The notes beneath the pieces were generated by a model. That model searched no databases and had not been told where the DNA came from. It was given only the letters and a program-made list of their open reading frames with translations. Position numbers and translations under genes: made by a program. Source: Methylotenera sp. (GTDB lineage Bacteria > Pseudomonadota > Gammaproteobacteria > Burkholderiales > Methylophilaceae). Taken from it: a DNA stretch of 64,000 bases. This document shows positions 1,023 to 1,560 of the stretch, one piece after another. Location of the stretch: assembly GCA_030682715.1 (NCBI GenBank), contig JAUXNQ010000045.1, positions 1 through 64,000 of the forward strand, read 5' to 3'. Numbering within the stretch: the first letter of the stretch is position 1; every line of letters begins with the position of its first letter.

Positions 1023-1302
1023 TTACTTTATTCATCCACGTAACTTTATGAATTATAATATATTTATCAGTATTGTATAGCAACATGATTTAACGTATTT
1101 GGATAACATTTACGATAGATGCCATCATTTACGGCGCTCCCAATCGAATAATGACAGGTAGATAAAGTGCATTATTTGAGAGACTAGCAACATGCTCACA
1201 ACTGGCTGTAATCAACCAATTGGTTCACCCAAAACAACCATACCGTTAAGCAATTAAAGAATAATCTAATTAAAAATCAATAAGTTAATAAATTATATTG
1301 AC
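1023..1302. other. gene-free stretch upstream of sigma-54 unit
   Basis: No plausible coding frame was found on either strand. The stretch holds the region upstream of the nucleotidyltransferase gene and, from about 1214, the likely upstream control region of the sigma-54 promoter at 1303. It becomes very AT-rich between 1240 and 1300, which suits bending by IHF, although no clear IHF site was verified. Confidence 0.6.
1214..1225. promoter_or_regulatory. palindrome, possible sigma-54 activator site
   Basis: AACCAATTGGTT is a perfect 12-bp palindrome with one further near-symmetric base on each side. Its centre lies about 110 bp before the inferred transcription start of the sigma-54 unit, where enhancer-binding proteins usually bind. 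It is not a good match to the usual NtrC consensus, so the activator is unknown. Confidence 0.4.
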
Positions 1303-1318
1303 TGGCATAACATTTGCA
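1303..1318 (+). promoter_or_regulatory. sigma-54 (-24/-12) promoter
   Basis: TGGCATAACATTTGCA fits the RpoN consensus TGGCAC-N5-TTGCW at all but one base. The invariant GG (1304-1305) and GC (1316-1317) are separated by exactly ten bases. Transcription would start near 1328-1330. No coding gene follows; the next feature is the structured RNA ending at 1560. Confidence 0.75.
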
Positions 1319-1328
1319 CTATCTCCAT

Positions 1329-1560
1329 CAGCGCCAATGCGCTTCATGGGAGGGTGCTGGATCTAGGCCATGCGAAGTATTGAAAGATATTAGCATGTTC
1401 AGTTACCTTCCCACCCAGCATAGTGCCAAGGTATTTCATGTAATGTAGCTTTGCAATACCAATCTAAGTAGTTGCGAATCTAGGTAATACCAATTCAGAT
1501 TGAAATTTGATGTGTTGATTGCGAGTTAGCCCGAGGTGTTTTACGCCTCGGGCTTTTTTT
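1329..1560 (+). ncRNA. putative sigma-54-dependent small RNA, ~230 nt
   Basis: The segment between a sigma-54 promoter and a strong intrinsic terminator has no credible ORF but visible secondary structure. GGGAGGGT (1348-1355) pairs with ACCTTCCC (1405-1412). Inside it CATGC (1369-1373) pairs with GCATG (1393-1397), closing a GTATT-GAAA-GATAT hairpin. Further on, CAATCT and AGATTG can pair, and two AATACCAAT repeats lie in a less structured stretch. I do not recognise it as 6S, tmRNA, RNase P, SRP RNA or a known riboswitch. Sigma-54-driven sRNAs such as CrcZ or NrsZ in pseudomonads are functional precedents, not homologues. The 5' end is inferred from the promoter. Confidence 0.65.
1528..1560 (+). 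terminator. intrinsic terminator of the sigma-54 RNA
   Basis: AGCCCGAGG and CCTCGGGCT form a perfect 9-bp GC-rich stem around a 9-base loop, followed directly by seven T residues. It is among the strongest intrinsic terminators in the window and defines the 3' end of the upstream RNA. Confidence 0.9.

Follow-up and report, generated by a model that had tools for sequence, protein, structure and literature searches.

A candidate sigma-54-dependent small RNA of Methylotenera with a putative bulge seed complementary to the leader of a LanPepSY-like gene

We analyzed a 64,000-nucleotide stretch of Methylotenera DNA (contig JAUXNQ010000045.1, positions 1 to 64,000; hereafter the window) and its relatives, and find there a predicted gene for a small RNA, sRNA-1, that is probably a sigma-54-activated, bulge-seeded antisense RNA acting on lanthanide and methanol-oxidation genes. 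In the mechanism that we propose from genome sequence, an enhancer-binding protein on upstream dyads would lead sigma-54 polymerase to transcribe sRNA-1, whose long core hairpin would display a 7-nt bulge, CCUAGGC. This bulge would kiss a GCCUAGG hairpin loop close to the 5' end of the transcript of lanP1, which encodes a LanPepSY-like periplasmic protein, and the bulge of a sister RNA, sRNA-2 (ACUAGGA), would likewise pair with UCCUAGU in the leader of xoxF, which encodes the lanthanide methanol dehydrogenase. Pairing would change the stability or translation of the lanP1 or xoxF mRNA; the sign is a guess, namely that lanP and xoxF are repressed when metal is scarce. We also favor, with somewhat less assurance, a broader reading in which the lanthanide switch of the Methylophilaceae has an RNA layer: paralogous sigma-54 sRNAs, each with a 7-nt bulge seed and its own leader-loop partner, the letters of the two co-varying.

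The predicted gene comprises a promoter, a structured transcript and a terminator (Table 1). The original prediction had described an RpoN promoter with GG-N10-GC spacing, a structured RNA of about 230 nt, a terminator and no gene in this interval, and all of these were recovered. Folding of the predicted transcript (1329-1561) gives -80.5 kcal/mol (z -4.65), a value as low being reached by none of 200 shuffles, and no open reading frame of 50 or more amino acids covers 1303-1560. For the bulge of the window RNA an unpaired value of 0.97 is predicted, and small hairpins like the one at the 5' end were seen by eye in sRNA-1 relatives. By itself the promoter motif is weak, with 3 matches in the window against 1.11 expected and 12 of 100 shuffles reaching 3. 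What raises sRNA-1 above chance is its conservation, that is, promoter, dyad and hairpin in seven genomes together with covarying pairs. An rpoN gene was found in all five genomes tested, the window's own included. In the window, sRNA-1 has MazF-like, nucleotidyltransferase and BFD genes as neighbors; the intervals 133-510, 735-1022 and 2313-2701 of the window hold MazF/PemK-like toxin and nucleotidyltransferase genes, which lie upstream of sRNA-1, and a tRNA cluster with two equal-scoring copies on either side of a third.

Table 1 Features of the predicted sRNA-1 gene and its upstream region (window coordinates).
Feature	Position	Strand	Remark
Upstream dyad TGGYTG-N4-CARCCA (TGGCTGTAATCAACCA), proposed activator site	1203..1218	.	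exact match
Second, stretched dyad TGGTT-N10-AACCA	1221..1240	.	joins the first to give the palindrome 1214-1225
Sigma-54 promoter TGGCA-N6-TTGCA (TGGCATAACATTTGCA)	1303..1318	+	GG 1304-1305, ten bases, GC 1316-1317
Predicted transcription start	1329..1329	+	from promoter spacing alone
5' hairpin AGCGC-CAAT-GCGCT	1330..1343	+	predicted fold
Core hairpin	1347..1413	+	lower stem 1347-1361/1398-1413, upper stem 1369-1373/1393-1397, variable apical part
7-nt bulge UCUAGGC, proposed seed	1362..1368	+	CCUAGGC in the other six members
3' part of the transcript	1414..1527	+	alignable in G115, G110 and G146 only
Intrinsic terminator, 12-pair stem then T run	1528..1560	+	

A DNA search of 187 family genomes recovered three close relatives of sRNA-1 (84, 83 and 75% identity) and short pieces in others. 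A covariance model built from six sequences (R1) matched at least 7 of the 187 genomes, all within the window's genus (52 genomes): the six model members and a divergent sequence in genome G126 (E 3.1e-6). Genome counts from both RNA models of this study are lower bounds because only the best 25 or 23 first-look candidates per genome were scored. Across the seven sequences, 97.9% of the cells of the main hairpin are paired and six pairs have changed on both sides, values that none of 500 shuffles reached; without G126, whose stem has many changed letters and retained pairing, there are two such pairs (26 of 500 shuffles), and the covariation signal rests largely on that genome. The sequences are related throughout, so the counts are not independent, and related sequences can beat shuffles; A6, which was fitted to the model, leans towards it. 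The compensatory changes anticipated by the original prediction are thus seen in relatives. The letters CUAGGCC, from the 7-nt bulge (C/U)CUAGGC and the C that follows it, are invariant in all seven members, and the promoter TGGCA-N6-TTGC is kept in six, with GGGCA-N6-TTGC in G126. The core hairpins of G121 and G126 are each followed immediately by a T run, and there they may also serve as terminators. A pattern scan of named genomes returned 20 stretches, five of them with promoter and stem (four Methylotenera, one Betaproteobacteria); the remaining 15, four from Pseudomonas, were without the sRNA-1 promoter and stem. A promoter plus CTAGGC pattern matched in 46 of 52 genomes, mostly in what by eye resembles coding sequence, and no new sRNA-1 was recognised among these matches. 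On this comparative evidence, sRNA-1 is a real RNA family.

We also considered that the locus could be a short mRNA for a small protein. A 23-codon GTG frame crosses the hairpin in G115 and G110; however, in the window it is only nine codons long, and in G146, G138, G121 and G126 (the last read to an internal T run only) it is different or absent. The ATGGG frame gives MGGCWI, MGGCWT, MGGGWT, MGRC and MGEF, and the ATG frame at 1346-1366, which had been judged incidental, encodes a different short peptide in relatives. It is the stems that covary instead, and a conserved protein-coding frame, the finding that would have spoken against a non-coding RNA, was not found in relatives. With frames that differ among relatives and stems that covary, we rejected this explanation as extremely improbable.

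At the Rfam 15 gathering threshold, the window contains three tRNAs and no match to sRNA-1, and 13 relatives' loci gave tRNAs only. A known RNA family was rejected on these searches of the window and the 13 loci, and the original view that this is an unrecognised family holds at threshold. The best sub-threshold match (NsiR1, 23.4 bits against 39) lies over the terminator, and all sub-threshold matches on the sRNA-1 strand span it.

The CrcZ, CrcY and NrsZ RNAs of pseudomonads are stand-alone non-coding genes with sigma-54 promoters, and sRNA-1 shares both properties. A sponge of this kind, reporting carbon or nitrogen status, would explain the sigma-54 promoter, the stand-alone gene and the terminator, and had been suggested by the likeness to CrcZ and NrsZ. 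The sequence features of such RNAs that we looked for were not found in the window RNA, however: the A-rich AANAANAA motif has 0 occurrences there, as in each of five relatives, and 2 in G121 (G126 read to its internal T run), and a simple pattern search (GCAC-N3-8-GTGC) found no NtrC-like site within 250 nt upstream of the window RNA. The Rfam search gave no match at gathering score, and the relatives' neighbors and shared dyad indicate lanthanide and methanol-oxidation genes. We rejected the sponge, given the lack of AANAANAA in the window RNA and of a match to this simple NtrC-like pattern, as very unlikely. Unlike CrcZ, CrcY and NrsZ, the window RNA is without A-rich repeats, and we propose for it a base-pairing seed and a lanthanide gene context.

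The 12-bp palindrome AACCAATTGGTT reported upstream of the promoter is present at 1214-1225 but is actually the junction of two dyads (Table 1). The 16-bp dyad is the sole window match within one mismatch (0.70 expected) and is unremarkable alone. The stretched 20-bp dyad also occurs in G115, G110 and G146, and a 19-bp form in G138. A dyad within one mismatch lies upstream of all seven sRNA-1 promoters, often with a second variant site, at distances of 78 to 112 bases (288 in G146), and the seven genomes carry 3 to 9 copies each of the exact dyad, compared to 0 to 4 of the reversed pattern. The promoter had been called an orphan but does not look isolated: the dyad found upstream of it also precedes pseudopilin and secretin operons that have sigma-54 promoters, as well as a TonB receptor and LanPepSY-like genes, the Pfam identities of these genes resting on one or two representatives each. 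Before lanP1 it is found in five of the seven genomes, exact in G000 (the window's genome), G110 and G115 and with one mismatch in G121 and G138; none was found before lanP1 in G146, and the sole near-dyad at lanP1 of G126 lies inside the leader. It also precedes a second PepSY gene, a lanP1 paralogue, in most loci read. Of 30 PepSY loci, 20 have an upstream dyad with at most one mismatch; for 59 permuted palindromes at the same loci the counts were 17 for two near-identical ones, 1 for two others and 0 for the remaining 55. In L040 (G142), near-dyads are kept 3' of the PepSY gene, with no sRNA recognised there.

The TonB receptor near the dyad adjoins an orphan-looking response-regulator sigma-54 activator, orthologues of which are present in 43 of the 52 genus genomes. 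Dyads lie directly upstream at 8 of 30 activator loci, in six of them as triplets 21-22 bp apart, and in G121, G126 and G138 they precede a large gene upstream of the activator, identified as the receptor by Pfam in G121. By position, this response-regulator bEBP beside a dyad-bearing TonB receptor is a candidate for the protein that binds the dyad. Since the lanP promoters look by eye like sigma-70 promoters, one dyad protein would need to act on two promoter types. Loci with a TonB-dependent receptor, a response-regulator sigma-54 activator and dyad arrays 21-22 bp apart are L106, L108, L109, L110 and L157-L162 (Pfam on L106 and L109 only), and by eye the receptor promoters are of the form GG-N10-GC. 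The pseudopilin operon, with sigma-54 promoter and dyad, was seen in L091 (4293-4704), L092 (4354-4764) and L093 (5560-5970), where its long, G+C-rich and structured-looking leader is nearly identical in G115 and G110. An O-antigen ligase-like gene adjoins a dyad (L091, 4807-6576; L093, 2583-2935), and in L093 a 615-aa gene is preceded by a dyad together with a GG-N10-GC site.

sRNA-1 adjoins lanP1 in five of the seven genomes (G110, G115, G146, G121 and G126). In G138 the two are on different contigs, and in the window's genome lanP1 lies near a contig end (G000:C64:422-943), as the window itself begins at one. The lanP1 product, a 173-aa protein with two Pfam PepSY stretches, matches PDB 9vy3 with an E value of 6.8e-63 (paralogue, 5.7e-50); the entry is listed as 'Propeptide, PepSY amd peptidase M4' and is, we believe, LanPepSY of Methylobacillus flagellatus. 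According to two reviews (PMC12482762 and PMC11845868), LanPepSY is a periplasmic protein of 19 kDa that binds lanthanides and has two PepSY domains. By sequence, then, the lanP1 product is LanPepSY-like, and its lanthanide binding is putative. On the other side of sRNA-1 in G110, G115 and G146 is a gene for a 321-aa beta-propeller protein, with a best NCBIfam match ('PQQ-dependent catabolism-associated', 266.8 bits) below the cut-off of 287.3. The seven sRNA-1 genomes are also the seven whose PepSY protein is of the closest type, at 73-100% identity, the next being at 67%. The shared dyad and the sRNA neighbors point to lanthanide and methanol-oxidation genes, not general nutrient status. Thus, of the nutrient-regulated sRNA originally predicted, the non-coding RNA gene with an activator-like site is retained and the general nutrient signal gives way to these genes. 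Only because of the genes concerned do we suggest lanthanide as the signal.

The bulge CCUAGGC is the exact complement of GCCUAGG, which is present in all seven lanP1 leaders, including that of G126, an otherwise quite different leader; the window bulge, UCUAGGC, would form six Watson-Crick pairs and one G-U pair with it. In six genomes the leader reads CCUGU[GCCUAG]GCAGG, just 3' of what by eye is a TATAAT-like box, and because these six leaders are nearly identical the 7 of 7 perhaps amounts to two independent observations. CCTAGG occurs in 7 of 7 lanP1 leaders versus 0 of 23 other PepSY leaders read, in a survey of one PepSY locus each for 30 of 31 matching genomes in which the start codon of G128 is misplaced. 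The sRNA-1 bulge is predicted to be 0.82-0.97 unpaired and the lanP1 leader heptamer 0.32-0.57 (mean). GCCTAGG is found 147 times in the window's genome (74 + 73), compared to 19 (11 + 8) for a reversed control, and 20 of the 24 places read lie within stop-to-stop frames of more than 160 codons; from this frequency, the chance of a match per 115-nt leader strand is about 0.35%. CCTAG was present in 10 of 14 versus 1 of 15 PepSY leaders (p 4.8e-4) and ranked third among the 1024 5-mers, after AGGAG and GCCTA, in a comparison that we set aside because the start codons of four loci in it are wrong. With leader sites about 60-115 nt 5' of the start codon, it is not obvious that the ribosome site would be blocked directly. 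CUAG is self-complementary, and two RNAs that both have CCUAGG therefore look complementary automatically; pairing can be told from a shared motif only by the flanking letters and the xoxF pair.

The xoxF pair involves sRNA-2, first found in genomes without sRNA-1 on the 3' side of the second PepSY type, in convergent orientation and with a sigma-54 promoter and dyads. A covariance model built from nine genomes (R2) matched at least 22 of the 187 genomes, the nine among them, at E 0.1 or better, 21 below 1e-6, and the matches fall in three genera: g1 (16), g15 (3) and g19 (3). In nine pairs both sides have changed, and the covariation score was reached in 0 of 500 shuffles; further pair types were not above shuffles (406 of 500). 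sRNA-2 is a long hairpin with the bulge ACUAGGA, which is seven nt in g15 and g19 as read and part of a ten-nt bulge in g1. R1 did not match any of 25 PepSY loci (sRNA-2 loci included) and R2 did not match any of the 7 sRNA-1 loci; the likeness seen here between the two RNAs is therefore one of build. G126 carries both, each with its matching target. Copies of sRNA-2 that are degenerate and lack CUAGG adjoin PepSY in G108 (L044) and G123 (L051), and a weak match in G135 also lacks it; a further copy in G108 (L211) is intact.

In most of 14 stretches retrieved from these genomes, sRNA-2 has as neighbors a MocR/PdxR-like regulator (318 bits against a cut-off of 320) and a divergent xoxF. This gene lies within about 2.5 kb on the same contig in 16 of the 22 genomes and was not seen near sRNA-2 in the other six, where some stretches end at a contig edge. 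The full-length protein of G148 has XoxF 6oc5 as best match (E 4e-199; best other methanol dehydrogenase, 8.3e-182) and carries D-Y-D, which is present in all five class-A (the xoxF type adjoining sRNA-2) and all three class-B (the other type) proteins read. The second Asp of this motif is taken as the residue of lanthanide enzymes, in line with the residue list in PMC11845868.

UCCUAGU, the exact complement of the sRNA-2 bulge, is present in 16 of 17 class-A xoxF leaders (9 of 10, and 7 of 7 in further genomes), often inside CUGG...CCAG. The exception is G172, which has sRNA-2 and an xoxF leader without UCCUAGU; in G126, sRNA-2 and the class-A xoxF are on different contigs. By contrast, 0 of 20 class-B leaders read contain UCCUAGU; 27 of 30 xoxF loci were parsed, with L234, L235 and L236 left out. 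Most class-B leaders (L223-L233, L237, L239, L241 and L242) have in common a stretch like AACC(C)UUAGUAGUU(Y)AACUUUGGAGA. When all 7-mers of sRNA-2 were compared with the xoxF leader of the same genome, the bulge matched in 16 of 17, compared to 9 for the overlapping -1 position and at most 2 for any other. In the control against class-B leaders, the bulge matched in 0 of 340 combinations and the other 7-mers gave 3.3 matches per pair, presumably owing to A+T richness. The xoxF heptamers are predicted to be 0.12-0.86 unpaired (mean) and the sRNA-2 bulge 0.44-0.63 in the window's genus; several of the target heptamers are thus mostly closed in the predictions. In the PepSY2 leaders of sRNA-2 genomes the match to the bulge is mostly 5 bp or less, and an association test on these leaders alone gave 3 of 7 versus 1 of 15 (p 0.077, with four misassigned starts). 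Hairpins with a GCCUAG loop and differing stems were seen in five PepSY2 leaders (L033, L037, L041, L049 and L050, from G148, G127, G139, G140 and G141), with only a 5-bp match to the local sRNA-2.

These comparisons bear on the idea that the bulge is a protein or ligand site and that the RNA titrates an RNA-binding protein which also binds the CCUAG hairpins of the lanP and xoxF leaders. Such a protein would explain why CUAG is common to sRNA bulges and leader loops, and why GCCUAG-type hairpins occur in five PepSY2 leaders whose local sRNA-2 complementarity is, by eye, only 5 bp. However, the letters that flank CUAG differ between the two RNA-leader pairs as pairing demands: between ACUAGGA/UCCUAGU and CCUAGGC/GCCUAGG, bulge and leader change in concert, and a motif for one common protein would not require this. 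In addition, the window bulge UCUAGGC breaks the CCUAGG motif, with pairing kept through the G-U pair. We consider the protein site unlikely, and we infer that the bulges pair with their leaders in the cell. A less probable alternative still is that the RNA is made and conserved, acting mainly on itself, as a dimer formed through the bulge, or on other mRNAs such as those of the TonB receptor and secretion operons; CCUAGG is indeed self-complementary, and the dyad precedes these other operons too.

The antisense reading places sRNA-1 near two known types of RNA. The Qrr sRNAs of Vibrio, which depend on sigma-54 and the activator LuxO and exist in several copies, pair with mRNAs, and base-pairing sRNAs that depend on sigma-54 are thus already known. 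The likeness lies in the dependence on sigma-54 and an activator and the base pairing, both predicted here, and in the several copies; sRNA-1 differs in having no Rfam match to the Qrr model at gathering score, in a proposed seed that is an internal bulge facing leader hairpin loops, and in its neighbors, hosts and activator. Kissing antisense RNAs are familiar from plasmid copy-number control and OxyS-fhlA, where, as proposed here, two folded RNAs make a loop-type contact of about 7 nt. Here, however, a bulge would meet a hairpin loop, and the RNA is chromosomal with a sigma-54 promoter. What appears to be new is the bulge seed, the lanthanide gene set and the intermolecular co-variation between paralogous pairs. 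The genes concerned, xoxF and that for the LanPepSY-like protein, are those of the lanthanide switch of methylotrophs. Among the literature matches listed in a full-text search, none describes an sRNA in the lanthanide pathway; PMC12403871 and PMC6373157, which mention xoxF and sRNA, concern other RNAs in the excerpts available.

How methylotrophs select a calcium or a lanthanide methanol dehydrogenase is under active study. The analysis adds two RNA families with no match in Rfam at threshold, together with a candidate activator. It also brings out an operator-like dyad by which sigma-54 promoters are linked to a TonB receptor and to LanPepSY-like proteins. If the proposed pairing is true, the choice between the two enzymes would include a post-transcriptional step, with the letters named on both partners.
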